DNA of 64,000 nt from positions 10,178,917-10,242,916 of the forward strand of contig OY727101.1 of the NCBI GenBank assembly GCA_963402885.1, read 5' to 3'. Source of the stretch: Antedon bifida (lineage: Eukaryota > Echinodermata > Crinoidea > Comatulida > Antedonidae). The position numbers were made by a program, and so were the translations under genes. The notes under the pieces are model-generated. The model did no database searches and was not told where the DNA came from. It saw only the letters and a program-made list of their open reading frames with translations. Below are positions 6,176-61,754 of this stretch, in pieces (position 1 is the stretch's first letter; every line of letters begins with the position of its first letter).

Positions 6176-6334
6176 CCAGCTACATGCTGGTCGTACGAAA
6201 CAAATTTGTAGTGATTAAAACAATGAAGTAACCAAGTTGTCTGCTGTTATTTTATTTATTTATGCTCTACCTTGGTATTGAGCACTCTATCCCTAACGGT
6301 CTGATAATTTCAACCTGAATATTACGCTCCTTAA
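6176..6334 (+). repeat. 5' terminal repeat of PLE copy C, beginning inside the ribozyme
   Basis: It starts with CCAGCTACATGCTGG, the distal part of hammerhead stem II, so the CTGAAGA core is missing. It keeps GAAA, stem III and GTGA. It continues through ATGCTCTACC and TATTGAGCAC to the ATG at 6335. The junction with the inverted copy falls exactly in the ribozyme hairpin. Confidence 0.75.
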
Positions 6335-8551: not shown

Positions 8552-8566
8552 TTGGGATCCAGTCAA

Positions 8567-8760
8567 GTCGCCCCATCGCAAAGTCGCCTCATACAAAGTC
8601 GCCCAATACAAAGTCGCCCCATCGCAAAGTCGCCCCAAAACAAAGTCGCCCCGGCACAGTCGCCCCATCGCAAAGTCGCCCCATTACAAAGTCGCCCCAA
8701 CGCAAAGTCGCCCCATCGCAAAGTCGCCCCACCGCAAAGTCGCCCCATCGCAAAGTCGCC
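8567..8760. repeat. Left terminal array, 16-bp unit GTCGCCCCATCGCAAA
   Basis: About 13 units start with GTCGC. Variants include CATACAAA, CAAAACAAA and a shortened CCGGCACA unit. Apparent ORFs across it are repeat artefacts. Confidence 0.9.
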
Positions 8761-8765
8761 CACGG

Positions 8766-10447
8766 TTTTATTTCTGTATGATTATGAAGCGCCGCCGCTA
8801 GTAGTACGCTGTTTTAATCATATCGGTTGCGTTTGATATCGATTGCGTTGTTACTTTGGTCGCGCTAAATGTCGCATACATTATAATGTTTATCCTATTA
8901 TATACATAATTTGTGTTTTAATTTTTATTTTACAGGTTTTAATGGAGTGATGTGCTTTTAAAAATCATTAAAAAAATACTCCCTTGTTTGAAAGTTCTAA
9001 AAAGATTATCCCTGATTTATAGTTTCGAAAATGTTAATTTAATATGATTTTAAAATTAGTTACCAGAGCCACAATTACGAATCTTTCTTCAACCTACGCG
9101 TGGATACCAGCTCAATTTTTAGGATAATATAATAAATGTATAAATGTGTAGTAGGCCTTCGTATAGATTTACAGTAGTTAAAACAATAACAGTGTTGTAA
9201 GACAATGAGTGTTATAGGCTACTTGATCATTTTGCATTTATTGACAAGTTATGTGTCTTAATTTTATGACTTTTCAAAATGAAGAAAAAAAAAAAATATT
9301 TCATCGCCGATATGATTGTTTTACATGCAGGTATTTTAGTAAAATTTAAAACGCTACATATTGACCATGGAAAAACCATCGTACAGTATCGTGTGCGTGT
9401 TTTTTAAAAAGGGGAATCCCCGACGGTCAGCAGAAAGACGTAGCAGCTGTGAGGAAACAGATACCAGAAGGCGCAGCTCCGATTGGTTTCAGAGTTTCAG
9501 ATGGCGAGTCGCCTTTTATTCAACAGCACAATGATCATTTTACTGAAGAAATTCTTTTCAACCCTTTTGGTTATAGAACATTCTAATTATCATGCCTAAT
9601 AAATATCCTCATATCGGGTGTTTATTTAATTTTAAATTAAACAAGACAGAGACACGGAGTAATACGTACACGGACGTACGACGAATACACACACGCACGT
9701 CATCATTTACGACATATAGTGGTGATATGATGCAATTTTATAATGGATATAATGATGGGATTGCCTTTCAAGGCTTACAATCAATGTTCATTGTAATACT
9801 ATGTATATAATAGTAAACTGAATGTTTATAAATAAATTGTTTTACGTAATTTGTTGCATATAAAATAAAAGACACAGACGCAGCCTACGTTTCCTATAAA
9901 ATATTTCACATTTAAATAATTATGTAATGTTAAATGACATTACATTATGCTGGATAATACTATAATCTTAAACTATGTTTACAAATTGTCATTTTTTAAG
10001 GCACACATCTTTCTCATCATACTGACCTGTAAAATAAAAACAAAAATCAATTATTAATATAGGCCTAATAATAATAAATATTCATCGACCAAAGTAAAAA
10101 TAATCTAGATAGTATAACATCATTTTATCGCGACCAAAATTAAACGCGACCGATTTCGAACGCGACTGATATCATCGTAAAACTCCGGCGGGGTTTCCCC
10201 ATCTTCAGATGATGCGTTGTAGTGCGACAACGGCGGAGTATTACGGGGGTTTCCCTCTGGTAAGCTAGCACGTTAGTGCGACCGCGGAGTGATTAGTCGG
10301 GGTTTCCTCTCTGATGATCAGGGTGCGTGACGATCGTGTAACCTGAGACTACATGGCGGGACTTCCCCTTTTATGCATACACGTTCCGTGTTATTTTGTG
10401 TATCATTGCGACATTTTACGCACTTGTAAACTATTTTTTAACGTTTT
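8766..10447. other. Interior of the 2.1-kb transposon
   Basis: No credible gene. It contains GGGGAATCCCCG near 9411 next to GTGCGTGTTTT, matching in reverse the block near 43540-43575. It also has a G+C-richer part with GGGGTTTCCC-type words at 10190-10310 and ACGCGACC words at 10130-10170. Confidence 0.6.
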
Positions 10448-10647
10448 GGGGCGACTTTGCGATAGGGCGACTTTGTGATGGGGCGACTTTGCGATGGGGC
10501 GACTTTGCGTTGGGGCGACTTTGCGTTGGGGCGACTTTGCGATGGGGCGACTGTGTCGGGGCGACTTTGTTTTGGGGCGACTTTGCGATGGGGCGACTGT
10601 GTAAGGGGCGACTTTGTATGGGGCGACTTTGCGATGGGGCGACTTGA
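10448..10647. repeat. Right terminal array, inverted 16-bp units
   Basis: About 13 units of GGGGCGACTTTGCGAT. Counting from the tip, the order of variant units follows the order in the left array: standard, ATACAAA type, a variant, standard, AAAACAAA type, short ACAC type, standard, AACGCAAA type. The two arms therefore descend from one array. Confidence 0.85.
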
Positions 10648-25398: not shown

Positions 25399-25430
25399 GC
25401 CAGTTTTGCCTCACATGAGGCAAAACTGGC
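25399..25430. repeat. Near-perfect 32-bp palindrome at the retrotransposon 5' junction
   Basis: Arm GCCAGTTTTGCCTCA, 2-nt centre CA, then the exact complementary arm. It lies at the 5' end of the non-LTR insertion; the open frame starts inside it. Confidence 0.85.
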
Positions 25431-27897
25431 TCAGATGGGGAAGAAATTCATGAGTTTAGAAAAATAAACTATACATCCCTGGAAAACTTTCGCATTGATG
25501 TGGCTTCACAACAATGGCTTGAAGTTATAAATACTGACGATCCCAACACTGCATATAACAATTTTGACAATAAATTAAAATCACTTTATAATAAACACTT
25601 TCCCCTCCAAAAATCAAAAAAAAAAAAAAATAAAATAAAATCCTGGATGACTAATGGATTGCTAAATTCAGTTAAATATAAACAGAAACTTTATTCTAAA
25701 TTCCTCCACTGTCCTTCTGTCGCCAATGAAAAAACATACAAAAAATTTCGCAATAAACTAAATACTTTGGTCAAACTGGCTAAAAAATTACATTACAAGG
25801 ACACTTTCATTAAACATAAAAATAATATCAAGGCAACCTGGAAAACTATCAATTCACTACTCAAAAACCCCAATAATCGAAACTCTGATATCTCTATCAA
25901 CTGTAACGGTGAACTGACTAAAGATCCCAATACAATATGTAATGCTTTTAACAAATACTTTGTAGAAATCGGTCCCTCCCTTGCTAACAAAATTCCCAAT
26001 GTCAACAACTCATTTAAAGACTTTCTGCCAAATCCAACTCATAATTCTTTATTTCTTAATCCAGTTGATGAGACGGAAGTTATAAAAATTATCACATCCT
26101 TTGAAACAAACAAATCCCCTGGCATTGACGATTTTAAAACTAAACCCATTAAATATGTCGCCAATTTGATCTCCTTCCCTTTATCCCATATTTTTAATCT
26201 TGTTTTAACTAATGGTGTGTTCCCAGACAGGATGAAGATAGCGCGCGTTACTCCTATTTATAAGTCCGGAAACAAATCTGATCTCTCCAACTATCGTCCT
26301 ATCTCAATTCTTTCAATTTTCTCGAAAGCCTTGGAGAGAGTGATTTATGAACGTACGTCCTCATTCATAAATAAATACAACATTCTCTACAAAAAACAAT
26401 TTGGATTTAGAAAAAGCCACAATACTGCATCCGCTCTAATCGACCTAACTAATAAAATTGTTGATGGTTTCGAAGACCGTCACCTCACATTAGGAATTTT
26501 TATAGACCTCTCCAAGGCTTTCGATACAATTGATCACAATATACTCTTATTCAAATTATCTCACTATGGAATCCGTGGCCCTGCTTTAAATCTCTTCAAA
26601 AGTTACCTCTCTAATCGTGTCCAATGCACAAAATTCTCCAATTCAATCTCTAATTTCAATCATGTAACTTGTGGTGTTCCCCAAGGCTCCTTACTCGGTC
26701 CCCTTTTATTTATTCTGTACATTAACGATATCTATCTTTCTTCCCCATTACTTGATTTTTACCTATACGCTGACGACACAACTGTCACTTATTCTCACCC
26801 TGAAATCCAAACTCTGTTTAATACTACCAACTCCCACCTAGAGATGTTGTCCCAATACTTTGCTGCTAATAAACTTTCTATAAACCATAAAAAATGTAAC
26901 TTCATCCTGTTTGGGACTCCCCAGAAGTTAAAAAATGTTGACCCATCACTATACAATATTACCATTGAAAATATAAACATCCCCTCTGTTCAATCAGCAA
27001 AATTCTTAGGTGTCCATCTTGACTCTGGCCTGACGTGGAAAACACACATTAGTGTAACTGAAAACAAAATTTCCAAAAGCCTTGGTATTATTTTTCGTTT
27101 GTCTTCATATTTACCCCCTAATATCCTACGCATCCTGTATTGCTCTATGATTCTTCCCTATTTGAGTTATTGTAATATTGTTTGGTGCAACACATACCCC
27201 ACAAACCTTAATAAATTGCATACCCTCCAAAAGAAGGCTATCAGAATTATATCTGGCGCGCCTCCGCTTTCCCATTCCTCTCATTTATTTTCAAATCTTA
27301 ATCTCATCAAACTTAATGATATCAACTTAATTCAACAAACCATTTTTGTCTACTCTGCCTTAAACAACATCCTTGCTCACCATCTTTGTTATATATTTAC
27401 TTCCAATTCCTTCTATCATTCCCATCACACACGTACTAAAAATAAATTATCTATACCCTCCCATAGAACAAATTTTTTCCAACATAACATTCGATACTCT
27501 GGACCCACCCTATGGAACAACCTACCACCCTCCATTTTAAAATCTGCTTCCCCTAAGATACTTCTCTCAAAATTAAAAAAATACACCTTTTCTACTTATT
27601 AAATATTTATTAATCGGTCATGTCTCGATCTGCAGTACCAACAGATTTTTTTTTTTCTGTTATTCATATTTTAGATTATGAAATTTATTATGATTTTCTT
27701 CAATGCATTTCTTTTCTTTTTTATTTGTTTTAAGGCTCGCCCAACACAAGATGTTACAAACATCTTTCTGGGCTTTTGCCTTCATTTTCTGATATACTTT
27801 TATAATTCTGTACAATCCTGTTTCTTGTTTTCCTACTGTTTGTATTCAGATTTTGTAAATAAATGTCTTTTGAATTGAATTGAATTGAATTGAAACA
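25419..27897 (+). mobile_element. 5'-truncated non-LTR retrotransposon (CR1/Jockey-like)
   Basis: The open frame to 27602 (700 aa if counted from 25500) holds the post-endonuclease linker and a full RT. The 3' untranslated region ends in a (TTGAA)n tail at 27871-27894. The endonuclease and any ORF1 are missing, so the insertion is 5'-truncated near 25420. Target-site duplications were not found. Lack of stops suggests a young insertion. Confidence 0.88.
25500..27602 (+). CDS. Non-LTR retrotransposon reverse transcriptase (partial ORF2)
   Basis: RT blocks in order: RVTPIYKSG and YRPISIL (residues about 250-270), KKQFGFRKSHNTASAL (about 300), FIDLSKAFDTIDH with the first catalytic Asp (about 333), GVPQGSLLGPLLFILYIND (about 390), YLYADDTTV with the catalytic Asp pair (about 422), then KFLGVHLDSGLTWKTHI (about 500), and a C-terminal region ending RYSGPTLWNNLPPSI. 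This enzyme primes reverse transcription from nicked target DNA. In-frame codons upstream of 25500 are open to 25419 (EIHEFRKINYTSLENFRID), so there is no true start; the native one was lost with the 5' end. Confidence 0.9.
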   Translation: MASQQWLEVINTDDPNTAYNNFDNKLKSLYNKHFPLQKSKKKKNKIKSWMTNGLLNSVKYKQKLYSKFLHCPSVANEKTYKKFRNKLNTLVKLAKKLHYKDTFIKHKNNIKATWKTINSLLKNPNNRNSDISINCNGELTKDPNTICNAFNKYFVEIGPSLANKIPNVNNSFKDFLPNPTHNSLFLNPVDETEVIKIITSFETNKSPGIDDFKTKPIKYVANLISFPLSHIFNLVLTNGVFPDRMKIARVTPIYKSGNKSDLSNYRPISILSIFSKALERVIYERTSSFINKYNILYKKQFGFRKSHNTASALIDLTNKIVDGFEDRHLTLGIFIDLSKAFDTIDHNILLFKLSHYGIRGPALNLFKSYLSNRVQCTKFSNSISNFNHVTCGVPQGSLLGPLLFILYINDIYLSSPLLDFYLYADDTTVTYSHPEIQTLFNTTNSHLEMLSQYFAANKLSINHKKCNFILFGTPQKLKNVDPSLYNITIENINIPSVQSAKFLGVHLDSGLTWKTHISVTENKISKSLGIIFRLSSYLPPNILRILYCSMILPYLSYCNIVWCNTYPTNLNKLHTLQKKAIRIISGAPPLSHSSHLFSNLNLIKLNDINLIQQTIFVYSALNNILAHHLCYIFTSNSFYHSHHTRTKNKLSIPSHRTNFFQHNIRYSGPTLWNNLPPSILKSASPKILLSKLKKYTFSTY

Positions 27898-30430: not shown

Positions 30431-32837
30431 ACATGACTCACACATAAAAACTATATGCGAGAAGCCTATACGAGTAATACTCTTTGCCTCCTTCATTCGA
30501 TTAAGGTAAGCATCACCTAAGGTAAGCTCAGCATTTTGTTCGATTGCATTGGCTGAAGACTTTTTTTCAGGCACGTCTAATCAAATAGATTATTATACAA
30601 TGGGCCTTTTTATTCCACAGGAAATCTAGTACACTGTATTACTGTATACAAAATGAATGGTTATGAATTGGATTGTAGAGAATATTTAATAAGTTGAAAA
30701 ATGGACTGCTATTTACAGGGGCTGGAACCTTGAAGAAAAGAGGGGCGTAGTTCGTGACGAATATTCAGCTGGAAAAAATTATGAATGTTAATGTAGGACT
30801 AATACATTTGAACTCGGCTCCGGCTCGTTTAATAGAGCAGTCAATCTTTCATCGAATGAAATTCTCTCCATTTAAATTCAACATTTTCGAACGCGGAGAT
30901 TCTTAAAATGTTTAAAAAAAAGCTGAAGGTGCATTAGTATACAAATAATGAATGTATATATGAGTTGGATGGTGGAGGAAAATATATGAAAGCAGTCAAT
31001 CTTTCAACATTGTTTTCACATATTTCACTTTCACATATTATTAATCCATCATGATTCATGATAAGTTGTCTGGAGAAATTACCAACATTTAGTACACAGT
31101 AAACCATATAAATATAATTCTTTTATTGGTGCCGTATAAAACTCGTATTATTAATTTATTAATAAAAGATATCCAGTAGAATAGCGCTGCTTTTTATAAA
31201 AAACAAGGTCGGAATACATGGTTCAGTTATAGGTCTACAAACAGTATAGTACACCTTTCACGCTTGAACGCACATCGCCTAGCAAGAGTATTGTGACGTC
31301 CTAATTAGTCTGGGCTCCAGACGGAGTTTTGTAAAAATATAAATATTTTTGCAAATATGGCGTTTCATACGTGTATTACTTGAGTTTGGATACTCCGTCT
31401 GGGGAAACACGCATAAGTCACGTGGTTTGACACCAAGAATTCTTGGTGCATAAATTATCCAGTTGACTAGTTTCAGCCGCATGCCATTGGCTACTCACTC
31501 GTACGTCGTTTTAATATTCATATTTCAGAATTTCAAAGACTCAACGTCTAAGACGATGCGCATGCGCTATGTTACGTTTAGACAATGTGTACTTGGGTAC
31601 ATTGATGAAAGTTTCTGAAGGCTAAAAATGATTTTATATGCCTAGTAGTCTGGTAAACATTTGATGAGATTTTTCCCAAGAACATGAAAACTCGTCTTGA
31701 TATGATATGATAGGCTATATAGCTTCTCCGCCAAATCTAACATTGAATGGATCATTTATTATGCGGAGAAAATTTGATTTAATTCCCACCCAGACCCTGT
31801 CCTGTTCTGTGTGGTGGTGTAGCCCTGTTGTGTGCCGGTCGGTGGTGGTATGTACCTTATTGACGTTTTTGGAAGGTCATACGTACGAGTTGAGTAGCCC
31901 TACGAAGGAGGCCTAGGTCAGGACTGGACTAAACAATTAATATTAATAAACAAAACAACTTGGCAACACGATTTTATATTTCAACAGTTGTTCAGTCTCG
32001 ATCGTACATTCAGCACACTGTACGTACTCGATCTTTTTCATTTTGAAACAAAATGATCATTGGTTGATTCGAAATCCATATTTACATACCGCCCGCCCCA
32101 TATAGCCAAATACGGTATGATAACCTACGTCATTCTTATCGGATGTTTGCGGTTTGCAAATCGATTTCTATACGTGTTTCACAAGTCTGTATTTTCAGAC
32201 AAAAATCGCGGTCGAAATAAAAACAAATAAATAAAAAAAAAGACAATAAATACAGACTTGGGGCAAGTCTACGTCCTAATACGCATGTACTTACACCAAA
32301 ATTGACCGTCCGTGGGCAGTAAACATTGTAATCATTGCTAATTGGGTTACGTAACGGCAGTGTTTAGCACCTATTAAATACTCATTACAAGCATAGCCTT
32401 AAGGAAGCGGTAAACACGGTGAACTGACTGAACTATTCAAGTTGTTTCTCCTCTTATTCTTTACTCCATGCATGCTAAGACACTGTGAAACAGGTTAGTG
32501 AGTAAGTTTAGTTTTACGAATATGAAGCATTTCAATAATGGTAACCGGCCGAAAACGTCCAGGCCAGAATGTCCTTCTAAAACCTTTTTACCTGAGTCAT
32601 TATCATTCCGAGAACCATCACCTACACTACCTAGAGGGGGAGCGAGCGAAGCGAGCTCACCCTCTAGTATACATAATGTATCTATATTTATGTAACACCT
32701 CCTAACGCACTATTAAAAGATAACTTAATAGTACCTTTTTTGTGTACGAAACAAAATCTGTTTTTTATACTATTAAACGTCACGTGATATTCGATTTTGT
32801 CGATAGGTGGCGGTATAAATTACGCAATATTTGTCTG
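30431..32837. repeat. Repeat-bearing spacer, no gene recognised
   Basis: 30645-31020 holds two or three pieces of the ATGAGTTGGATG / GACTGCT element that also sits in the FBXO48-like intron. 31317-31402 is an inverted pair CCAGACGGAGT / ACTCCGTCTGG. 31556-31567 is TGCGCATGCGCT, an NRF1-like word. I found no supported ORF. Confidence 0.5.
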
Positions 32838-33110
32838 CATGACGATTGGTGTGTACTGCATGACGATTGGTGTGTACTGCATAACCATTGGTGTGTACTG
32901 CATGACCATTGGTGTGTACTGCATGACGATTGGTGTGTACTGCATGACGATTGGTGTGTACTGCATGGTGATTGGTGTGTACTGCATGATGTTTGGTGTG
33001 TACTGCATGACGATTGGTGTGTACTGCATGATGTTTAGTGTGTACTGCATGACGATTGGTGTGTACTGCATGACCATTGGTTTGTACTGCATGACGATTG
33101 GTGTGTACTG
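32838..33110. repeat. 21-bp minisatellite, 13 units
   Basis: The unit is GTGTACTGCATGACGATTGG plus T. Variants are mainly in the GACGATT part (ACCATT, TGTTT, TGATT). Because 21 is a multiple of 3, open frames run through it on both strands; none is a believable gene. Confidence 0.92.
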
Positions 33111-33720
33111 CATAATAAATGTGAACTGAAGGCAGAGGAGGCGTTCCATAACTTTCTGCAATTGTTGGTTTTATTGTTATGTGAAATGTTTTGGCCTTCC
33201 GAAAAATGCATTTTTTGGACCTAGGTCAAAGGTCAAATGCTCAAAAAGTGCAATTCAGTGACCCCAAAAAGTCAACCCGTACATATATGGGCCTCGTGTC
33301 CTAGGACAGTAAATTACCCGTATGGGATACGGGCCACGTCTTCAAAAGGTTAAAATAATTTCAAATTTTATCCATGGGTTTTCACAGACTGGCTTATTGA
33401 GCTCAGTTAGTTTAGCTAAATGTAAATTATATATTAAAAACACCGGAACATGCCCTATTTCAGGAGTTCGAACTGCTACTTCCTGTGTAGAAAAAACGAT
33501 TCTTTTATGTAACCATATGGATGGGTCTGGGATTATTCCTCCCAGTGACAATTGTTCATGGGTCATAGTATTATGATTTATGTAAAGGATAAATATGGAT
33601 CTTGTAAATTTAAGATGTTACGTTATTATTACTATGTATTTTATTTATTTATCATTTCAGTCCTTGTTGAAATTGCCCCACGTGGGATAAATAAAGAATT
33701 TGAATTGAATTGATGATACC
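33111..33720 (+). repeat. Spacer ending in a retroposon 3' tail
   Basis: 33660-33715 reads GTCCTTGTTGAAATTGCCCC, then GGGATAAATAAAGAATTTGA, then ATTGAATTG repeats. This has the form of a LINE or SINE 3' end. The ORF at 33322-33576 has no family features. Confidence 0.5.
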
Positions 33721-42670: not shown

Positions 42671-43160
42671 GATGAAATCGGTCGCGTCTGAAATCGGTCG
42701 CGTTTGAAATCGGTCGCGATAAAATCAACTTCCGGTATTTTATATGGCGCGCCGCTAGAGCTATACTTTTGATGATATCGGTCGCGTTTGAAATCGGTCG
42801 CGCTATTTTTTATGGATCGAGCGGGATGCATGCTAGAGCGGGATATACATTTTTCGTTTATATAGATTTAATTGATATTTTTTAGGAACTAGATTATTTA
42901 TGTGGATATTTTTTACTTGGTTAATAAATATTTATTATCAATCATTAAATAATTTTTTTTTTTGTATTTCACAGGTCTCGGAGAAGGATTGTGTCTTTTC
43001 AAAATGGCCATTTCTAAACACGTTTAAATATTATATATTAATTAGGCATAATGTTATATTAGGCATATAATAATTTACCTCTATTTATATGTACTGTAAT
43101 TAATATATTATATAGAGAATATACGTCTGTCGTGTCTTTTATTATGCAAACAATTACGTA
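42671..43160. repeat. Left long terminal inverted repeat
   Basis: It starts with three units of TGAAATCGGTCGCGTT, then ACTTCCGGTATTTT, GGCGCGCCGCTAGAGC, two more units, and AT-rich sequence to ATTACGTA. It differs from the right arm by a few bases and a duplicated ATTAGGCATA. Confidence 0.9.
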
Positions 43161-44207: not shown

Positions 44208-44674
44208 TACGTAATTGTTTGCATAATAATAGATACGACAGACGTATATTCTCTATATAATATATTAATTACAGTACATATAAATAGAGGTAAATTATTA
44301 TATGCCTAATATAATATTTAAACGTGTTTAGAAATGGCCATTTTGAAAAGACACAGTCCTTCTCCGAGACCTGTGAAATACAAAAAAAAAATTAATTTAA
44401 TGATTGATAATAAATATTTATTAACCAAGTAAAAAATATCCACATAAATAATCTAGTTCCTAAAAAATATCAATTAAATCTATATAAACGAAAAATGTAT
44501 ATCCCGCTCTAGCATACATCCCGCTCGATCCATACAAAATAGCGCGACCGATTTCAAACGCGACCGATATAATCAAAAGTATAGCTCTAGCGGCGCGCCA
44601 TACAAAATACCGGAAGTTGATTTTATCGCGACCGATTTCAAACGCGACCGATTTCAAGCGCGACCGATTTCATC
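44208..44674. repeat. Right long terminal inverted repeat
   Basis: Reverse complement of 42671-43160, ending AACGCGACCGATTTCA units and CATC. The minus-strand ORF at 44460-44657 is an artefact of the repeat. Confidence 0.9.
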
Positions 44675-45014: not shown

Positions 45015-47185
45015 AGACCTGCTCCAAAGCAAGTAAATTCAAAGCTAAAGAGCCTGCAAAAGCAGTACACCATTGCAAAAGACAATAACTCGGGGAGGGA
45101 ACGAATTACTTGTCCCCATTACGATGTTTTCTGTGCTCTCACAACATCTCTATCACTAGGGCTAGGCTCTTGAAAGTGAGGCGTAAAACTCCCTTTATTT
45201 TAATTATCGACCAAATAAATGAATGGCAAGATGAACTTTAACACGACCACCCAAGAAGTATTGTTAGCAGAAACAGGGTACTAAAAAATACAGTATAAAA
45301 AATACCGTATTTTATACCGTATTTTCATACCGTATTTTGTGCAGTTGCAGCAAAAAACAGGCCCATAGAGACATGTATTTGGTCTTAAATTGTTCCAAAC
45401 ATATGTTTATTTTCATTCTAATGAAACATTTTATCAATATGTGGTAATTTGTTTTTACTCGTTGTAAGGATGTGATTTCTGACATAATTCCGTAATTCTA
45501 TTTTTTAACACATAATTCCATAATTATATTTCTGAACAAATTAAAGGCCAAAAATAGTACAAAATTTCTTTTTACTCCAAATTGTTTAATTGGAAAAAGA
45601 CATTGCTGCAAGTTATTGTTATTATTCAGACAAATTAATGATGACACTGCCTGGAATTTTGTTTCAATAAAACATAAAGTATAGTATAGTAGGCCTACCA
45701 TTACAGTAGATATAAAATACGGACATTTTAAAAATAAAAATAAATTTGAATTTGGAAAATTAGAGCTAATAATGCATAAAGCATCTATGTGTAATTATGG
45801 TGGCGCTAGACCCCAATTTGCATACACACCTGAGTGGTGGCGTGCTAGGTATTACTGTATATAAAGGACGTGTTGTTTTGCCATTAAACACTTGTACTTA
45901 TCGTAACTTACATGGTCGTCTCTCTGTCTCATTTCTTTCGTCTAACACCAGATTTTACACTATGCGCTTCACAAAAATATAACACGTTTTCAATAAAACA
46001 ACAGAAACTAAACTACCAACATCTTGCCAAACCCACATAACTATATTCGGTTTACCAGCAATTTCATACCTAGACAAAGTGAATCAGGGAAGAATGCAAT
46101 TACATGTTTTAATGTTTGATGTAAGATTCGCGAGTTTTCCATGTAATTCACAATAAAGAATGAAAGTGTTTGTCGAAGAGGTGATTTTTAAAAGCTGCTT
46201 AAATATGGGGATTGAAAGAGTCTGATGATTGACGAAAAGTATGTTCGCAATGCAATTTTGTAGATAGACAATACTGGTATGAACAAGAGTCTGAAAAAAT
46301 ACAGGTCTCAAATACCTAATTCTAGTCACTATCAGACAAAATGTTTGTTATAATGAATACAAAAATATACATGCTCTGACCAATTTAAATCAAATGTTAA
46401 CTTTGTGTGATCAATATATATTGAGATACAAGAAAACCGAGGTCAAATGTCAATTCAGCCATTTCTGGCCACAATTTACTAAAATTACAATCATTAGAAT
46501 GAATATAAACATATATGTTCGGAACAATTTAAGACCAAATACATGTCTCTATGACCAGTAGTTATCAAGATAGGAGGTCAGGGTCAAAGGTTAATGAAGC
46601 CATTTCTGGCCACATATTGATAACATGTTTTATTAGAATGAATATAAACATATATGTTCCGAAGAATTTAAGACCAAATACATGTCTCTATGACCAGCAG
46701 TTATCGAGATAGAAGGTCAGAGTAAAAGATCAATAGCAATATTTCCATTCATGTCTCTCGGTTGAAGTTGTTATTGCATAATTATAGAAGACGCGCTGTT
46801 CTCTCGGTTGTAAACTGAATGCTTAAACATTGACGCGCGCTGTCATTGGCGTCGAAGGAAAGCTTTTCATTATTTTTTGCTAATGCTATGTCTCTACCTG
46901 TTGAATGCTTTAACAATAAACGCGCACTGTCCTTGGGTCTTGAAGATGAGTTTTTCATAGATGTTTAATGTCCCAAAGCATTATATACATCGAACGGATG
47001 CTATTGTTTAAACGGCAAGTTATGTAATATACCCGCCTACTACCTGTTAAATGCTTAAACACAATGATGCGCGCTTTGCCAGATTAGCTCTATCGTCGAC
47101 AAAGAGAGATGGTCTATTGCAGAGGATTTCTGTTTGCAATCTTCTGCTTACACAATAAAGGCGCGGGCTGTCGTTGATTAATTTA
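45015..47185. repeat. Repeat-bearing spacer before the receptor cluster
   Basis: 46444-46583 and 46584-46728 are a tandem duplication (GCCATTTCTGGCCACA, GACCAAATACATGTCTCTAT). An inverted partial copy is at 45358-45450. 46810-47180 holds four degenerate units with AATGCTTAAACA...GCGCGC. ATACCGTATTTT words repeat at 45302-45347. No gene is seen. Confidence 0.6.
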
Positions 47186-48560
47186 ACAATGGATTATAAC
47201 CAACAGCTGTATAAACTTTTGCCCTGGCTTGATGATCTCGTTTCTTTAGAACAATTACATATAAGGCATTGTGATTATCTACAATATATCCTAAGGTATT
47301 TAACAATTGTAAAAAACTAATAAAAGTTAATTTTACAAGAAACTCTATAACTATATATTCACTCCGGAACTTTCCAGAATTTACCAGATCTTAAATATTT
47401 ATATCTAAACAACAATAAGATTACCAGTATACCACTATTCGCATCTAAAGGTTCATCGCGATTACAATGATGACTCTAGATAACAACTTGCTGACTAAAA
47501 TCACAAAGTATGCTGGACTCCAAAATCTGACTCAATTACAGTTTCTAAATTTGGCGTACAACAAATTTCATTGTGATTTGGTGTGGTTTAGAAAATGGAT
47601 TGGGACAACGAATGTTACAATTCAAGACATCAACAACACAAAATGTATCCCATATGAAGGCGTCCATTACAAGAAAATAATGGAATTTAATCCTAATGAA
47701 CTAAACAACAGCAAATTTGAAAAAATCTTTAAATATACAATTCCCTCTCTTTCAGCTGGGCTTAGTGTTGTAATTGTGTATGCTGTTTTTTACCGTTACA
47801 TATTCTATTTAAGGTAAGATCAGGTGTATTATAAATAAAAAAAACCCAAAAGTGAAATATCGATATCTGATTAGTTAGTTTTTTTTCAACATTTTCAATA
47901 TTAAATATAGACCTATTTAATCATATTGAATGTTACCGTTTTATAAATGTTTAAACCATACGTTTTTCTTTTTAATTTTAATTTTAAAATCAAATATATT
48001 GCGAAAGATAAGTTAATTGTAAGTAAGTAAGCCCCTCTGCTAAAATCAGAAGCAAGATAATATATAGAAACACGTCGAGGGACACACAAGCTTCGGCTTT
48101 ATAAGTCTCAACATCAAGTAAATCAAGATAAAACTATTTTATGAATTATCTTGCATTATGTAAATCGGCAATGAATTTTATTTATTTCAATGCAACCAAG
48201 GACTTCCTACTGTTAACGAAGAAAACATTCGGTATGACGTGTTTGTCTGTTACAACAGCAAAGACCAACAATGGGTTCTGAAAACCTTACAGCCATCGTT
48301 GGAGGTGCAGCGAAATGTTAGACTCTTTGTTGACTATCTAGACTTTATTCCAGGAGAAGCAATCGTTACAAACATTGCAAATGGTGTTAAACACTGTCGT
48401 AAGGTTTTGTTAGTTGTGTCCAAATATTTTTCCAAAGTAAGTGGTGTAACTTCGAATAAGAGATGGCGCGCATGCGTATGTTTGACAACCATAAAGATAT
48501 CTTGATAATGGTATTACTTGAAAAGGTGTCACCTAAAGACATGCCGATACTCAATCATTT
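47186..48560 (+). pseudogene. TLR-like receptor copy a (truncated)
   Basis: It begins abruptly at the sequence equivalent to residue about 145 of copy d (NNGL-type region TAACAATGGATTATAACC), so the signal peptide and first LRRs are missing. The remaining LRR part has frame breaks before 47467. Then come NLTQLQFLNLAYNKFHCDLV WFRKWIG (LRR C-cap, one CDC reduced), a TM segment, and a donor at 47814. The TIR exon lacks its acceptor and first about 50 bp, keeps YDVFVCYNSKDQQWVLKTLQ and FIPGEAIVTNIA, shifts frame near 48440, and stops short near 48553. A dead copy. Confidence 0.85.
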
Positions 48561-49034
48561 CTAACAGCAAGCACATGACTCAAGTTAATGCTTTCTGACT
48601 AATACCACATTCACATCGACTAGCAAACTCCACACCTGTGTTATTTTGGTGTGCGTTCCGGCAGGGAAGACTAAAATTAAATTTTACTCTTCCTTGATTC
48701 AGGTGTGCTTAAACTCCAAAATATCTGAGGCAAAGGAAAAGGGTATGATGTATAGTATTATGATTAGGCAGTAGTGCTCTTTTTGGCAATGAGAAATATC
48801 CTGATGATATTGCCTTATAAATTGATTGTACTCTAAATGTAGTACTGTATATAATGCTTTTAAAAGTTCTATTAGGTTAAATTAACTATTAAGAATTGAC
48901 TTTTTAATAATTAATTAATTAATTAATTAAACTACTTATTAATGTGTCTTCCTCTCGTATCTAATTTGCTAATTAAAGCTTTGTTAATGTATTTCTTTAT
49001 TTGTAACTGACTTATGCTTGCATACGGATCCGAA
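48561..49034. other. Spacer after receptor copy a
   Basis: 48610-48740 shares CTCCACACCTGTGTT, GTGTGCGTTC and AAACTCCAAA with 58520-58575 behind copy c, so this is duplicated 3' sequence. (TTAA)n lies at 48906-48929. Confidence 0.55.
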
Positions 49035-51411
49035 TATATGTACATGTGGTATCTGATTGGCTAATTCTTGCTTCAACCTTAAACTCCCTACATATTCTAA
49101 GTACATGTGTTATCTGATTGGCTAATTCTTGCTTCAACCTTAAACTCCCTACATAATCTATGTACATCTGGTATCTGATTGGCTAATTCTTGCTTCAACC
49201 TTAAACTTCCTAAATATTCTATGTACATATGTTATCTGATTGGCTAATTCTTACTTCAACCTAAAACTTCCTACATATTCTATGTACATGTGTTATCTGA
49301 TTAGCTAATTCTTACTTCAACCTAAAACTTCCTACATATTCTATGTACATGTGTTATCTGATTGGCTAATTCTTGCTTCAACCTTAAACTCTCCACAAAT
49401 TCTAAGTAAATGTGTTCTCTGATTGGCTAATTTTTGCTTCAACCATAAACTCCCTACATATTCTATGTACATATGGTATCCGATTGGCTAATTGTTGCTT
49501 CAACCTTAAACTTCCTACATATTCTATGTACATATGGTATCTGATTGGCTAATTCTTGCTTCAACCTTAAACTCCCTACATAATCTATATACATATGTTA
49601 TCTGATTGGCTAATTCTTACTTCAACCTTAAACTTCCTAAATATTCTATGTACATGTGTTATCTGATTGGCTAATTCTTACTTCAACCTTAAACTCCCTA
49701 CATAATCTATGTACATCTGGTATCTGATTGGCTAATTCTTGCTTCAACCTTAAACTTCCTAAATATTCTATGTACATATGTTATCTGATTGGCTAATTCT
49801 TACTTCAACCTAAAACTTCCTACATATTCTATGTACATGTGTTATCTGATTAGCTAATTCTTACTTCAACCTAAAACTTCCTACATATTCTATGTACATG
49901 TGTTATCTGATTGGCTAATTCTTGCTTCAACCTTAAACTCTCCACAAATTCTAAGTAAATGTGTTCTCTGATTGGCTAATTTTTGCTTCAACCATAAACT
50001 CCCTACATATTCTATGTACATGTGGTATCTGATTGGCTAATTCTTGCTTCAACCTTAAACTCTCCACAAATTCTAAGTAAATGTGTTCTCTGATTGGCTA
50101 ATTTTTGCTTCAACCATAAACTCCCTACATATTCTATGTACATATGGTATCCGATTGGCTAATTGTTGCTTCAACCTTAAACTTCCTACATATTCTATGT
50201 ACATATGGTATCTGATTGGCTAATTCTTGCTTCAACCTTAAACTCCCTACATAATCTATATACATATGTTATCTGATTGGCTAATTCTTACTTCAACCTT
50301 AAACTTCCTAAATATTCTATGTACATATGTTATCCGATTGGCTAATTCTGACTTCAACCTAAAACTTCCTACATATTCTATGTACATGTGTTATCTGATT
50401 AGCTAATTCTTACTTCAACCTAAAACTTCCTACATATTCTATGTACATGTGTTATCTGATTAGCTAATTCTTACTTCAACCTTAAACTCCCTACACATTC
50501 TATGTACATCTGGTATCTGATTTGCTAATTCTTACTTCAACCTTAAACTCCCTACATAATCTATGTACATAAGGTATCTGATTGGCTAATTCTTACTTCA
50601 ACCTTAAACTCCCTACATAATCTATGTACATGTGTTCTCTGATTGGCTAATTTTTGCTTCAACCATAAACTCCCTACATATTCTATGTACATGTGGTATC
50701 TGATTGGCTAATTCTTGCTTCAACCTTAAACTCCCTACATAATCTATGTACATGTGTTCTCTGATTGGCTAATTTTTGCTTCAACCATAAACTCCCTACA
50801 TATTCTATGTACATGTGGTATCTGATTGGCTAATTCTTGCTTCAACCTTAAACTCTCCACAAATTCTAAGTAAATGTGTTCTCTGATTGGCTAATTTTTG
50901 CTTCAACCATAAACTCCCTACATATTCTATGTACATATGGTATCCGATTGGCTAATTGTTGCTTCAACCTTAAACTTCCTACATATTCTATGTACATATG
51001 GTATCTGATTGGCTAATTCTTGCTTCAACCTTAAACTCCCTACATAATCTATATACATATGTTATCTGATTGGCTAATTCTTACTTCAACCTTAAACTTC
51101 CTAAATATTCTATGTACATATGTTATCCGATTGGCTAATTCTGACTTCAACCTAAAACTTCCTACATATTCTATGTACATGTGTTATCTGATTGGCTAAT
51201 TCTTACTTCAACCTAAAACTCCCTACATAATCTATGTACATGTGTTATCTGATTGGCTAACTCTTGCTTCAACCTTAAACTCCCTACATAATCTATGTAC
51301 ATGTATTATCTGATTGGCTAATTCTTACTTCAACCTTAAACTTCCTACATATTCTATGTACATCTGGTATCTAATTGGCTAATTCTTTCTTCAACCTTAA
51401 ACTTCCTACAT
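49035..51411. repeat. 61-bp satellite, about 39 units
   Basis: The unit has ATCTGATTGGCTAATTC, TTGCTTCAACC, TAAACTCCCTACATATTC and TATGTACATGTGGT. The period is 61 bp throughout. The variant CTCCACAAATTCTAAGTAAA starts at 49391, 49940, 50062 and 50855; the spacings are 9, 2 and 13 units, which shows block duplication within the array. Single degenerate units also exist at about 54400-54455 and 54605-54665 behind receptor copy b. Most units hold CTGATTGGCTAA, an NF-Y (CCAAT box) type word. Confidence 0.95.
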
Positions 51412-52071
51412 ATGTGAATATCTACAACCGAAAGCTAATGAAAACTTAGAGAAATACTCACTCATGCTCTGCTATTCACTGTATCATGATGCACCGATCC
51501 TTTATTTAACTATTACCATTCAGCGTTTGCTAGTTCTTTTTTAAACGATGCAAGTTCATTCCTTCGCGTTCAGAACCAGCAACATCTACCATTTGCGTAC
51601 ACGACATTTTGCATGCTATTTGCATAATTAATAAATCATGTTGGCGCTTTCGTAACAAACTGCTGTCACTAATTTGTAAATAACGAATTTTTGTTTTTTG
51701 TATTTTATGGGCTCATCCCACTTTTATTTAATTTTTAAATAAGAATATAGAATATCTTATATTAGAATATTATTATTTTATCATTATATAATATAATAAT
51801 AGATCTCGTAGTTGAAAACAAAATAAAGGTTGCTTTAGCAATAGTTACATAAAATGTATAGGATAATAAAGATGTATACTCGCTACGTATATACTTAAAT
51901 AGGGAAGAATGCACCAAGAGATTTTGAGAAGCTTTATTGTCGCCTAACTGTCGCGCTGAATACCAATTTGATAGTGAAACCAGATCGAGATCATGCAAAT
52001 GTAGACATCATAGCAATGCTTAAGTAATTGGAAACATAAAAATGGAATTAATAATATTGTATATTTGATAC
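51412..52071. other. Region between satellite and receptor copy b
   Basis: 51420-51640 is homologous to 54690-54930 and in part to 62385-62500 (AGAGAAATACTCACTC, GATCCTTTATT, GACATTTTGCATG). It marks the 3' part of the duplicated receptor unit. No gene. Confidence 0.6.
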
Positions 52072-52231: not shown

Positions 52232-54129
52232 ATGAATAATATGTGGAGTTTTCTTCAGGTTAATATCGTTCTTTCGGTAATATTTTGTCCTATAATTAGA
52301 GGTAAATTAACGTGTTACAAATACAATCCGTTGGAAAATGGAACTCAGCCGCTTGATGATTTCAGATGTCCTAAGCAATGTGACTGTCAATATTGCAAGG
52401 AAGAAACGGAAGTACACTACAGTCATGAAGTGTATTGTTCAAGCAGAGGATTGAAAGCTATTCCATCGCAAGATACGATGCCAACTGATGTTAATTATTA
52501 TCATCTGCAAGAAAACAGTATTTCGTTTCTGAAGAACTACTCTTTCCTGAATTTAACTAACCTGAAGTATTTACTACTTGATGGAAACAACCTGAATTAT
52601 AACAAAATTGAGATTGATGCATTTTAGTTTTGGATGAAAATGGTTCCTTATATAAACTTTTGTCCTGGTTTGATGATCTCGTATCTTTAGAACAATTATA
52701 TCTAGAAAAGTGTGGATTAACAACAATATATTCTAAGGTATTTAACAATTGCAAACAACTAATAAAAGTTGTACTTACAAGAAACTCTATAAACTATATT
52801 CACTCTGAAACTTTTCAGAATTTATCAGTTCTTAAATATGTATATCTAAGCAACAACCAGATTACCAGTATACCACCACAAGCATTTAAAGGTTCATCGC
52901 AATTACAACAAATGTCTATAGATAACAACCTGCTGACTACAATCACAGAAGATGTTGGACTTCAAAATCTTCTTCAATTACAGTTTATACATGTGGCGTA
53001 CAACAAATATTTATGTAACTGTTATTTAGTGTGGTTTAGAAAATGGATTGGTACAACGAATGTTACAATTCAAGACATCGACCACACAGAATGTAGCCCA
53101 TCTAAAGATAGTCAAGAATACACGACAATGTTGAATTTCGATCCCGATAAACTGCACTGTAGCAAGTTGGATAACATCTTAAGAATTACAATTCCTTGTG
53201 CTTCAGCTGGGCTTATTGTTGTAATTATGGTTGTCAATCTTTACCGTTACAGATTTCATTTAAGGTAAGATCAGTGCTATTAGTATTGTAACTATCTGAT
53301 TGCTTACGAAAAAAAACCAGACTTTTAATGTATTTAAAAATGTTTTGATTTTAATTTGTTTAAATTCCTTATAATTACTGACATTACAACACTATACGTT
53401 TATAAAATATTTTCCATGATAGCCCAAAAAGCTTATTAGGATCCAATTAAAAATTCATATCTGTATACTAGGTGAATCATTAACACAATCAGCATCAGTC
53501 GTCGATTTTAATGTTAACGTTTAATAAAATCTATTACATTATGTAATTTTTTTTTCAATTACTTATTTCAATTTAGGTATTGGAACCAACGACGACGCCT
53601 TCGCAAACAGTACCAGCGAATTTGTAACCAAGGACCTCCTCCCATCAACGGAGAAGACATCCGGTATGACGTGTTTGTCTGTTACAACAGCAAGGACATA
53701 CAATGGGTTCTTGATGTTTTACAGCCATCGTTGGAGGTGCAGCGAAATTTTAAACTATGCGTCGACTATCGAAATTTTATTCCAGGAGAAGCAATCGTTA
53801 CAAACATTGCAAATGCTGTTAAACTCAGTCGTAAGGTCTTGTTAGTTGTCTCCAAACATTTTGCCAAAAGTGAGTGGTGTAACTTTGAACTAGAGATGGC
53901 GCGCATGCGTATGTTCGACCATCATGAAGATATCTTAGTCGTCGTATTAATTGAGAAAGTTTCGGCCAAAGACATGCCGATACTCTTGCACAAGATATTA
54001 ACCACGACAACTTATATCGAGTGGGAAGAACATCCGGAGAGACAAGCATTGTTCTGGGCCAAGCTTGAAACAGCTCTTTTGTCACCTAACTGTCCTAAAG
54101 ATAGGCTCATTGATAACACCAGATATTAA
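52232..54129 (+). pseudogene. TLR-like receptor copy b (one frame break)
   Basis: Exon 1 52232-53264, exon 2 53577-54129 (donor AAG/GTAAGA, acceptor TTTAG). Exon 1: signal peptide MNNMWSFLQVNIVLSVIFC; LRR N-cap with CPKQCDCQYC; about seven LRRs; LRR C-cap NCYLVWFRKWIG; TM segment ASAGLIVVIMVV; then RYRFHLR. Exon 2: YDVFVCYNSKD (box 1), YRNFIPGEAIV (box 2, N in place of the usual D), SEWCNFELEMAR, and ALFWAKLE (box 3). About 25 bp are missing at 52622-52629 relative to copies c and d, so a TAG at 52625 ends the frame in the middle of the LRRs. It would be a cell-surface or endosomal pattern receptor signalling by TIR contacts. The frame break may be real or an assembly error. Confidence 0.85.
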
Positions 54130-55754
54130 TATCCGATAAGCAGTGGCCCTGTATGGTGATGATATTGTGTGTATATTTCTTGTACCACAAATTTAGTACT
54201 GTATACTAACATAAATTCTAGTCGGTTAGATTACCTAAATAAGCGTTTTCACCTCCTTGTCAGATGATTTTTAATTCAATTCTAATCAACTACTTATTAA
54301 TTTGTCCTCATCAAGTATCTAATTCGCTATGTATATAACATCTTTATTAATGTTTTAATAAATTATGTTGCATACGTATCGCATCTACATCTGTATCTGT
54401 TGTCTGATTGGCTATTTCGTGATTCAACCAGAAACTCTCTACATAGTCTATAGGCCTATTCTTGTTTACGTGAAAGCTAATGGAAACCTAGTCTAGATTG
54501 TGTGTCTACTTAATATTAGTAACAATATTTTGGCAAATTTGGCGTTCCATATGTATAATCTCGCAATCTCGACAATCTAAAAGCCGACTATCATGTGTGT
54601 TCGCATTTTACATCTGGTATTTGATTGGCTACTTCTTGCTTAAAACCTTAAACTTACATATTCTAAACTCGTGTTTTTGTGAAAGTTTACAACCGAAAGC
54701 TACTAGAAACCCACAATAAATAAAGAGAAATACTCACTCAATACTGCTTAGTCACATTACTTTGCACTGATCCTTTATTGAACTAAAACCGTTCATGTTT
54801 TGCTTGTCCTTTTTCAAGTGCAAGTTCATTCCTTCACGTTCATAACCAAATCAGCACCTACTCTTTGCATACAAGACATTTTGCATGGTATTTGTATAAT
54901 TAGTAAAACGTGTTTCTTTAGTTAACAAACTGCTATCACTAATTTTTAACATAACCTTGTGTTTTTGTGCATAAGATTATAGTGTGTAATTATTGATATA
55001 TTTCGTTATTTTATATAATGTAGGCTAAATTAAAAAAAACATAATTAAAACTTGAATCATCACTGTTATTGTTCAATTTCTAATGTAAATTTGAATAAAG
55101 GTGGCGTAAGCCTTAAACACATTTAAGAAGTAAATGTGGTATAAGATTTGTTCCCAGCAAACACAAAACGTTTGTAAAACCTAAACCAAACGTTTGAATT
55201 TGGGTTTTTTAAGGTTTAGTTTTATGCTAAAACGTTTTAAACACGTTTATCAACTTCAAATGTTCTAATCAAACAATGTTTGCATCAAAACGTTATAAAA
55301 ACGTTATAATAACGAATGCAAAACACTAAATTGAGAAATAATATATTTAAAATAACATGTTAGTTAGAATATAAACTAAAGAAATCAAAAATACAGTATA
55401 CCAATCCGATACTTCTCAATGTAAGTAGTGGTGACGAGGAGATTGTCTTCGGCCCAATCACTGATTTGTTTAAACTGATACGAATAGGTGACGGTTATCT
55501 ATGACATGATAGAACAGGACAGGGTGTGGTTAATTGTTCAGTGCAAAAGCAGCCCACAATACATCATGTAGTACCATATCTGCTGACGCCAACACACATA
55601 CACACACCATACAACTTTAGTTAAAAGTAGTTAAGACTACTAAATATTTTACCTTAAACCTTACCTAAAATTTTAAATAATCCTCAATTGTGTACAAACT
55701 ATGGTCTACCGATTGGAAAGCTTAAGCATTAAACAATCAGCCGAACAGCTGGGT
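54130..55754. repeat. Spacer after receptor copy b
   Basis: Single units of the 61-bp satellite sit at about 54400-54455 and 54605-54665. 54690-54930 is homologous to 51420-51640. 55155-55320 is rich in AAACGTTT words after CCCAGCAAACACAAAACG, likely a transposon end. No gene. Confidence 0.55.
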
Positions 55755-56315: not shown

Positions 56316-56471
56316 TATTAATAAATCATTATTTTCACATGTTGAACCATTACCTAAAAAGGAGATGTATAACGATATGTCATTCTCACTTCTCCTTATT
56401 ATAATACATACAGTATAGATTTCTCTCATTGTTACGTTATACTTTAAATAAAAAGTACATACAGTACCACT

Positions 56472-58377
56472 ATGAATATGTGTACTCTTCTTCCCGTTAG
56501 TATCGTTCTTTTCTTAATATTCCACTGTCCTATTAGAGGTAAATTATGCCACAATTACAATCCGTCAGTAAATGGAACTCAGCCTCTAGATGATTTCAGA
56601 TGTCCTAAGAAATGTGACTGTAAATATTGTAAGTTTGACACGGAATTATACTATAGTCATTATGTGTATTGTTCAAGTGCAGAATTGAACATCACTCCAT
56701 CGCAAGATACGGTGCCAACTGATGTTGAATATTACCATCTAGACGACAACGGTATTTCGACACTAAAGAACGACTCTTTTCAGAATTTAACTGTTCTACG
56801 ATATTTAAATATTATTAGCAACAAGCTAATTTATCATAACATTGATATTAATGCATTCCGTGGTTTGCAAAAATTGACTCAATTAGCAATGGATGAGAAC
56901 CAACATTTGTATAAACTTCTGCCCTGGCTTGATGATCTCGTTTCTTTAGAAGAATTACATCTACAATACTGTGGATTAACAACAATTATTCTAAGGTATT
57001 TAACAATTGTAAAAAACTAATAACAGTTGATCTTGCAAGAAACTCTATAAACTTCATTGACTCCGGAACTTTCCAGAATTTATCAGATCTTAAATATTTA
57101 TATCTAGGTGACAATCATATTACCAGTATACCACTATTCGCATTTAAAGATTCATCGCGATTACAAGGAATAACTCTAGATAACAACCTGCTGTCTACAA
57201 TCACAGAGGATGTTGGACTCCAAAATCTGACTCAATTACAGTTTCTAAATTTGGCGTACAACAAATTTCATTGTGACTGTGATTTTGTGTGGTTTAGAAA
57301 ATGGATTGTGAAAACGAATGTAACAATTGAAAACATCAACAACACAAAATGTATACCTTATCAAGGCACAGAATTAAAGAAAATAATGGAATTTATTCCT
57401 GATAAACTAAACTGCAGCAAATTTGAAAAAATCTTTACATATATAATTTCTTCTGCTTCAGCTGGGCTTATTGTTGTAATTGTGTGTGCAGTCTTCTACC
57501 GCTACAGATTCAATTTAAGGTAAGATCATTCGTATTCAAGAATAAATGCCTGTTGTTATGTATACGCAAAAGACACACAATATCGATATCTTATTAGTTA
57601 TTTTTTTTTTCAACAGACTTTTAATATAGACCTATTTAATCATATTGAATGTAACATTTTATAAATATTTTTTCAACTATACGTTTTTCTTTAAGTTTTA
57701 AAAACAAATCTATTGCTAAAGATAAGTTAATTGCAATACTAAAATCAGAATCCAGATGAGATTATTTTATGAAATATGTTGCATTATGTAAATCGTCAAT
57801 TAATTCTATTTATTTCAATTTAGGTATTGGAAACAGCGACGACGCCTTCGTAAACAATACCAGCGAATTTGTAACCAAGGACCTCTTCCCGTCAACGGAG
57901 AAAATATTCGGTATGACTTGTTTGTCTGTTACAACAGACACACAAAAAGACACACAATGGGTACCTGATGTTTTACAGCCATCGTTGGAGGTGCAGCGGA
58001 ATTTTAAACTATGCGTCCACTACCGTGACTTTCTTCCAGGAGAAGCAATCGCTACGAACATTGTAAATGCTGTTAAATTCAGTCGTAAGGTTTTGCTAGT
58101 TGTCTCCAAACATTTTGCTAAAAGTGAGTGGTGCAACTACGAATTAGAGATGGCGCGCATGCGTATGTTTGACAACCATGAAGATATCTTGATATTGGTA
58201 TTACTTGAAAAGGTGTCACCTAAAGACATGCCAATACTCTTACACAAGATATTGACCACAAAAACTTATATCGAATGGGAAGAACATCCACTGAGACAAG
58301 CATTGTTCTGGGCCAAGCTTGAAACTGCTCTTTTGTCACCAAACTGTCCAAAAGATAGGCTAATTGATAACCCATAG
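56472..58377 (+). pseudogene. TLR-like receptor copy c (two frame breaks)
   Basis: Exon 1 56472-57519, exon 2 57824-58377. Signal peptide MNMCTLLPVSIVLFLIFHC; N-cap CPKKCDCKYC; LRRs; C-cap HCDCDFVWFRKW; TM ASAGLIVVIVCAVF; RYRFNLR. One base is missing near 56991 compared with copy b (ACAACAATTATTC against ACAACAATATATTC), ending the frame at 57020. In exon 2, 7 extra bases near 57932-57945 (ACACACA in the box 1 segment CYNS...) give a stop soon after YDLFVCYN. The rest of the TIR is well kept: YRDFLPGEAIATNI with the usual RD..PG box 2, SEWCNYELEMARMRMF, and ALFWAKLETALL. The kept TIR suggests recent inactivation or sequence errors. Confidence 0.85.
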
Positions 58378-60290: not shown

Positions 60291-60611
60291 ACTGTACGCA
60301 CATCGTAGGGTTTAACATAGCTATACGTTGGTAATTTTTTTTGACATAGAAATAAAGTTTTGGTTTGGACGAAAGTCGATGAATTTCCTAAACAATTGAA
60401 TCGGTTGTTGTAAGAATTATATGAGGTTTAGTACATTAAATTCTTAAATATTAATAAACCATTATTAATTATAATGTTTTGTCTAAAGATGAAAGTGAAA
60501 ATAATTTACTTGAAAATGAGATTATAACGTCAATTAATTTTTAGAAATACTTAAATTGATTGTTTGAAAAATTATTTTAGTTTCATTGCTCCAAATTCTG
60601 GCATTTGTTAC

Positions 60612-60621
60612 GAAAGTGAAA
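60612..60621 (+). promoter_or_regulatory. ISRE-like GAAAGTGAAA upstream of copy d
   Basis: It starts 159 bp before the ATG at 60771. A second GAAAGTGAAA is at 60491-60500. It lies in the same conserved block as in copy c. Confidence 0.5.
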
Positions 60622-60770
60622 TATTAATAAATCATTATTTTTCCAGCTTGAACCATTACCTAAAAAGGAGATATGTCCTTATCACTTCCTTATTAGAATA
60701 CATGTACAGTCGATTTCTCTCATTGTTACGTTATACTTCAACGGTTCAAAAAGGTTCATACAGTACCACT

Positions 60771-61754
60771 ATGAATATGTGTACTCTTCTTCCCGTTAGT
60801 GTCGTTTTTTTTGTAATATTCTACTGTCCTATTAGTGGTAAGTTAACATGCCACAATTACAATCCGTCGGTAAATGAAACTCAGCCGCTAGATGATTTCA
60901 GATGTCCTAAGCAATGCTACTGTAAATATTGTAAGAATGCAACGGAATTCTACTCAAATTACACTCATAACGTGTTTTGTTCATTTCAAAAATTGAAAGC
61001 TATTCCATCGCAAGATACGGTGCCAACTGATGTTGAATATTACCGTCTGGAAGACAACAGTATTTCGTTTCTGAAGAACTATTCTTTCCAGAATTTAACT
61101 TTTCTAAGATATTTAAATATTAATAGAAACAATCTAATTTATGATAACATTGATATTAATGCATTCCGTGGTTTGCACAAATTGACTGTTTTAACAATGG
61201 ATGAGAACCAACAATTGTATAAACTTCTGCCCTGGCTTGATGATCTCGTTTCTTTGGAACAATTACATCTACAGTATTGTGGATTAAAAACAATATTTCC
61301 TAATGTATTTAACAATTGCAGAAAACTAATAAAAGTTGATCTTACAAAAAACTCTATAAACTACATTCACTTCGGAACTTTCCAGAATTTACCAGTTCTT
61401 AAATATTTATATCTAAGCAACAACCAGATTACCATTATACCACAACAAGCATTTAAAGGTTCATCTCAATTACAACGAATGTCTATAAATGACAACCTGC
61501 TGACTACAATCACAGTGAATGTTGGACTTCAAAATCTGACTCAATTACAATATCTAGATGTGGCGTACAACACATTTATGTGTGACTGTGATTTAGTGTG
61601 GTTTAGAAAATGGATTGGGAAAACGAATGTTACAATCCTAGATATCAAACATACAGAATGCAGATCAAATCATGGAAAAACATACGTTAACATACTAGAA
61701 TTTGATCCTGATGAACTAATCTGTAGCAAATCTCAATTTAAGGTCCATCCATGA
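60771..61754 (+). CDS. LRR ectodomain-only receptor (copy d, lacks TM and TIR)
   Basis: 327 aa, uninterrupted. Signal peptide MNMCTLLPVSVVFFVIFYC (about 1-23); LRR N-cap with CPKQCYCKYC (about 45-55); about seven LRRs (for example LKYLYLSNNQITIIPQQAF near 220-240); LRR C-cap CDCDLVWFRKWIG near 285. It ends SKSQFKVHP. Copies a-c continue with a TM segment. Here AGCAAAT is joined directly to CTCAATTTAAGGT, so about 95 bp carrying the TM is deleted; the old splice donor became AAGGTCC. No TIR exon follows in the next 1.5 kb. The product, if made, would be a secreted LRR protein, possibly a soluble binder. It is the only copy with an intact exon 1 frame. The frame is open upstream of 60771, but this ATG matches copies b and c and precedes the signal peptide. 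Confidence 0.8.
   Translation: MNMCTLLPVSVVFFVIFYCPISGKLTCHNYNPSVNETQPLDDFRCPKQCYCKYCKNATEFYSNYTHNVFCSFQKLKAIPSQDTVPTDVEYYRLEDNSISFLKNYSFQNLTFLRYLNINRNNLIYDNIDINAFRGLHKLTVLTMDENQQLYKLLPWLDDLVSLEQLHLQYCGLKTIFPNVFNNCRKLIKVDLTKNSINYIHFGTFQNLPVLKYLYLSNNQITIIPQQAFKGSSQLQRMSINDNLLTTITVNVGLQNLTQLQYLDVAYNTFMCDCDLVWFRKWIGKTNVTILDIKHTECRSNHGKTYVNILEFDPDELICSKSQFKVHP

Follow-up and report, generated by a model that had tools for sequence, protein, structure and literature searches.

A 61-bp minisatellite with an NF-Y-like box in a Toll-like receptor gene cluster of Antedon bifida, probably expanded from a unit of the receptor 3' flank

The window, by which we mean the whole 64,000-nucleotide stretch of Antedon bifida DNA analysed here (contig OY727101.1), contains the receptor copies a to d, which from their domains are predicted to be Toll-like receptor type genes in tandem, and a minisatellite array between the first two. 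According to Pfam, copies b and c carry both LRR and TIR domains, whereas only LRR was identified in copy d and only TIR in copy a; for copy a the LRR piece submitted to Pfam gave no match, and its LRR is known through tblastn only. Copy a is broken: its LRR region lacks the beginning, the match starting at about residue 205 of the fragment of copy d, it contains in-frame stops, and its TIR part has a frame shift and a match ending at residue 158 of 203. The initial annotation had placed the array between immune receptor genes, which holds in that the neighbours carry LRR and TIR domains but must be amended for the broken left neighbour. The array begins 479 bp behind copy a, and the first ATG of copy b, at 52232, lies 819 bp beyond the array end. 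The features concerned are the following:

47162..48558, plus strand: receptor copy a, broken (TIR by Pfam, LRR by tblastn)
48559..49036, plus strand: 3' flank of copy a, piecewise homologous, as far as the first unit, to the flanks of other copies of the receptor
49037..51413, plus strand: minisatellite array, 39 x 61 bp, 22 distinct units (TRF, and cutting at 61 bp)
51414..51450, plus strand: continuation of the native 3' flank after the array, also present behind single-unit copies
52232..54129, plus strand: receptor copy b, LRR and TIR exons (Pfam)
54395..54448, plus strand: single diverged unit behind copy b
54609..54663, plus strand: second single diverged unit behind copy b
56448..58377, plus strand: receptor copy c, LRR and TIR exons (Pfam)
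60555..61754, plus strand: receptor copy d, LRR part (Pfam)

The two diverged units behind copy b are the single old units that had been described there; within 1.7 kb behind copy c no unit was found. Elsewhere in the window, positions 601-8482 hold retroelement reading frames in opposite orientation, one of 566 aa (minus strand, 601-2301) and one of 715 aa (plus strand, 6335-8482), very similar by eye, which we take to resemble Penelope-type elements, and an open frame of 727 aa at 25419-27602 is presumably akin to a non-LTR reverse transcriptase. Short tandem repeats form two inverted pairs, each about 2 kb apart (8565-8761 and 10447-10645, AAGTCGCCCC; 42673-42718 and 44627-44672, TGAAATCGGTCGCG), and we assume that such facing pairs resemble foldback-type element ends. 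A second minisatellite, with 13.3 copies of a 21-bp unit (CTGCATGACGATTGGTGTGTA), occupies 32835-33113.

TRF delimited the array at 49037-51413, with a period of 61, 39.0 copies, 90% matches and 0% indels, and reported it as the sole 61-bp tandem array in the window; about 39 units at exact 61-bp spacing had been claimed from the initial reading, and this was confirmed with the coordinates moved two bases to the right of 49035..51411. When the array was cut at 61 bp, units 17-22 proved identical in every letter to units 30-35, as did units 3-7 to units 12-16, and mean unit-to-unit identity was highest at lags of 9, 11 and 13. Minisatellites with multi-unit blocks are a known kind, enlarged by unequal exchange. 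With these the array shares a fixed unit length, here within the 10-100 bp typical of head-to-tail minisatellite units, the lack of indels, a single-copy ancestor in flanking DNA, and block repeats, its exact six-unit and five-unit blocks and lag peaks being those of growth via unit or block duplication; it differs in that its unit is matched, among the best candidates scored, solely in DNA flanking a single immune gene family. A coding array was rejected, as no ORF of at least 80 aa was found in it and 61 is not a multiple of three.

The 12-mer CTGATTGGCTAA is exact in 28 of the 39 units and differs by one mismatch in the remaining 11; allowing up to two mismatches, it is matched 48 times in the window, compared to a maximum of 12 in 100 dinucleotide shuffles. 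ATTGG is present in 34 units, and RRCCAATSRG, which we take to be the NF-Y decamer consensus, is matched on the minus strand in 33, bearing out the description of an NF-Y-like box in nearly all units with its CCAAT on the reverse strand. When the consensus unit was dinucleotide-shuffled 20,000 times, just 0.23% of the shuffles contained the full decamer on either strand, and 17.5% the pentamer. Moreover, no other part of the window is as dense in CCAAT pentamers as the array (33 in 2.4 kb, against a median of 4); the 21-bp minisatellite also repeats ATTGG, in 11 of about 13 units and without the full consensus, so that a repeated CCAAT pentamer is not unique to the array in the window.

The consensus count and the pentamer density of the array would fit a reading in which it is a working NF-Y platform, whose CCAAT boxes would bind NF-Y, exclude nucleosomes and increase the expression of copy b, 819 bp downstream. 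A precedent is offered by the U3 region of ERV-9/LTR12, which has 5-17 tandem repeats of ~41 nt in a retroviral LTR, with CCAAT motifs and reported NF-Y binding in the human LTR12 enhancer (PMC11853044). The likeness lies in fixed-length tandem repeats with a CCAAT box, and the NF-Y consensus is found in most repeats of the array as in an LTR12-type enhancer; the difference is that LTR12 is a retroviral LTR bound by NF-Y, whereas the array is host gene flank known from its sequence and its core is not outstandingly kept (see below).

To place the unit in the genome (315.6 Mb, 27 contigs), three DNA searches were run and their best candidates scored: 366 bp of the array (10 candidates), unit 1 taken twice (6) and one unit together with the native DNA on either side (10). 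Matches among these best candidates, which give lower bounds, fell on C7, C8, C9, C14 and C15, in every case at a receptor locus with TIR matches, and none lay outside receptor loci. The unit is, in this sample, confined to the vicinity of receptor copies and not spread randomly, nor did we see copies away from this gene family, as a dispersed satellite or transposon would leave them. A TIR protein search of the genome gave 75 matches, and in the fetched blocks 40 TIR 3' ends were counted, defined as matches reaching residue 185 or beyond and not including copy a. At least one same-strand unit, mostly single, lies within 1.7 kb downstream of 18 of these 40 ends and none behind the other 22; two further TIR ends on C13 also had none.

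Outside the window array we found 19 unit groups, all on the same strand as the receptor and 269-656 bp past the point where the TIR match ends. Tandem units, from two to five, occur at three of these loci only, namely a C7 locus with five and two matching C8 loci with two full units and a 24-bp piece each; two C7 loci retain a 21-bp piece only, and the remaining groups have one unit apiece, except that copy b has two separate units. On C8, four receptor copies with their units recur pairwise about 340 kb apart (L011/L028 at C8:20741000-20759500 and L012/L027 at C8:20401000-20419500), either as a segmental duplication or as both haplotypes in the assembly. The next receptor start follows 460-4481 bp past the unit in 16 of the 19 groups, and none was found in 2.1-3.2 kb of fetched DNA in the other three. 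On these distances the position of the unit appears fixed relative to the preceding gene and not to the following one, which, together with the 22 ends that have no unit, speaks against a platform acting on the next gene.

The sense-strand position at 269-656 bp behind the TIR match, and the AATAAA that follows the unit in some copies, could also point to an element of the receptor 3' untranslated RNA, a reading compatible with minisatellite growth. Against it, the position of AATAAA varies among copies, conservation of the unit is no higher than that of the preceding flank, and the fold of a two-unit stretch did not exceed its shuffles (z -0.37 and -0.63), on which we rejected RNA structure in the unit. 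We consider an RNA element improbable.

Single-unit and array copies have in common the left flank CGTATCCG and, slightly changed, the right flank TTATGTGAATATCTACAACCGAAAGCTAATG, and TCTA occurs at both borders of the unit. The unit is a native 61-bp piece of the 3' flank in this Toll-like receptor (LRR + TIR) family. Because single units are colinear in the 3' flanks of paralogues and genome matches lie at receptor loci only, the array probably grew from such a native unit, in agreement with the origin first suggested for it. The states observed range from a single unit with homologous flanks on both sides, through small arrays at three other loci, to 39 units with block repeats. In a tree of 37 of the 40 TIR segments (three short unit-carrying segments were omitted), unit-bearing copies fall in the larger clade, intermixed with unit-free ones, and are absent among the C10 and C15:4.7-Mb copies, a distribution that fits a single origin of the unit followed by losses. 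The eight full-length units on C7 and C8 each agree with a window unit in 58-59 of 61 letters, and for six of them the nearest is unit 1, the leftmost; support in a tree of the units (61 columns) is too weak to tell whether the C14, C7 and C8 arrays have a common multi-unit ancestor. A transposon origin was rejected on the receptor-flank homology on both sides of single units and the lack of genome matches elsewhere among the best candidates. Inverted repeats as element ends were likewise discarded: six of 25 listed pairs span the array, but with arms of 19-36 nt at 73-84% lying 7.8-13.7 kb apart, and only one of the six has an arm at an array border (48964-48986, 78%).

Conservation was assessed in an alignment of 11 of the 19 unit-bearing flanks, with arrays collapsed to one unit; the flanks left out were those of three near-duplicate C8 copies and of five copies in which the unit follows the TIR match at ~270-302 bp. 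Mean column identity was 0.80-0.83 over the unit windows and 0.70-0.89 in the windows of the preceding flank (one of these had too few columns). Downstream of the unit it was 0.86 for 21 columns and, once past columns covered by too few rows, 0.63-0.79, with about 0.5 further on. The box therefore appears to be preserved to much the same degree as the preceding flank, and more strongly than the distant one. ATTGG is intact in six of the 11 flanks, reads ATTAG in two, is deleted in one and cut off in two, whereas CTGATT is unchanged in all eight flanks that retain the whole region. Ranked across these eight loci, ATTGG has two variants against a mean of 4.7, with eight of 57 windows having fewer and 11 equal. 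Within the array it has five variant cells against a mean of 12.6 over 61 five-column windows (nine have fewer, six of them none), and the decamer CTGATTGGCT has 11 against 25.2, with fewer in three of 61 windows; the ranks weaken when only the 22 distinct units are used, 11 windows then having fewer variants than ATTGG and five fewer than the decamer. Since nine of 61 array windows and eight of 57 between-locus windows vary less, ATTGG seems to be preserved above the average window, yet moderately and not exceptionally. On the question, raised at the outset, of whether the core is more conserved than the rest of the unit, what stands is below-average variation and a high rank for the decamer; ATTGG itself is outstanding neither in the array nor between loci, and the CCAAT core is not kept clearly above its surroundings as expected of an LTR12-type enhancer, the decamer ranking higher than ATTGG.

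The proposed NF-Y platform is affected by these data in both directions. In its favour are the well-kept decamer, the invariant CTGATT and the retention of ATTGG, in one unit or more, by 12 of the 19 groups elsewhere; against it are the unremarkable preservation of ATTGG and its absence from the other seven groups. Nor did the 34 receptor starts share a promoter CCAAT at a common position, the best candidate being ATTGG at -75 in six of them, all related C7/C8 copies, and a family-wide promoter CCAAT was rejected. The dense NF-Y platform first envisaged is not borne out by the conservation of ATTGG or of the unit, which is no better conserved than the flank preceding it, and we judge it very unlikely.

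A different role is suggested by sea urchin Sp185/333 (SpTransformer) genes, where flanking microsatellites are proposed to act in gene exchange and rearrangement and in repeat-mediated duplication; each of the six genes described is bordered on either side by GA microsatellites, which mark a drop in similarity, with repeats ~300-350 nt behind the stop codon in five of the six (PMC3091723). By analogy, the 61-bp repeat could be a recombination platform promoting exchange or rearrangement among receptor copies, which is compatible with the minisatellite reading. Like those repeats as described there, the unit lies at a set distance behind clustered immune genes, and it does so in the same orientation behind many copies; the two C8 receptor sets match pairwise; and in four copies (two C8, two C7) right-flank homology breaks inside the unit near the CTGATTGG box. 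In contrast to the microsatellites that flank all six Sp185/333 genes in that account, however, the unit is found behind 18 of 40 ends, mostly singly and with more than one tandem unit at only three loci outside the window. Similarity breaks inside the unit in only those four copies, against the drop at the repeats reported in the sea urchin; where both flanks survive it runs past the unit, at 0.86 in the 21 columns just behind and at 0.63-0.79 in the next ones with enough rows. Moreover, unit-free receptor copies are likewise tandemly duplicated. A recombination platform is unlikely in our estimation.

By far the most probable reading is that the array is an ordinary, locally expanded minisatellite in an immune gene cluster and that its NF-Y-like box is a chance feature of the flank, in line with the alternative, already raised in the initial annotation, of its being simply a satellite. 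The starting unit would have been an ordinary 61-bp stretch of 3' flank inherited by the paralogues of one Toll-like receptor subfamily. Its first duplication may have been due to slippage, or to an unequal exchange between short matching stretches, with TCTA as a possible slippage point, and small arrays would then have formed behind some receptor copies. Block duplication later presumably enlarged the array behind copy a, which is decayed and whose neighbourhood would therefore be weakly constrained, and the NF-Y-like box would have been multiplied along with the unit. A chance CCAAT box multiplied 39-fold behind a dead copy might since have become a newly born, NF-Y-bound block of open chromatin driving the next receptor gene; such a gained function would be too young for a conservation signal to be expected, and we hold it to be most improbable.

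Among the titles listed, our literature search found none on this 61-bp repeat, which is no proof of absence. As an ordinary minisatellite, the array would be a clean case in which the single-copy ancestor still lies behind sister genes, suggesting that the copying of a flank can yield a motif-rich array of regulatory appearance. Were NF-Y to bind the array, the locus would provide a natural test of enhancer creation by repeat growth in an immune gene cluster.
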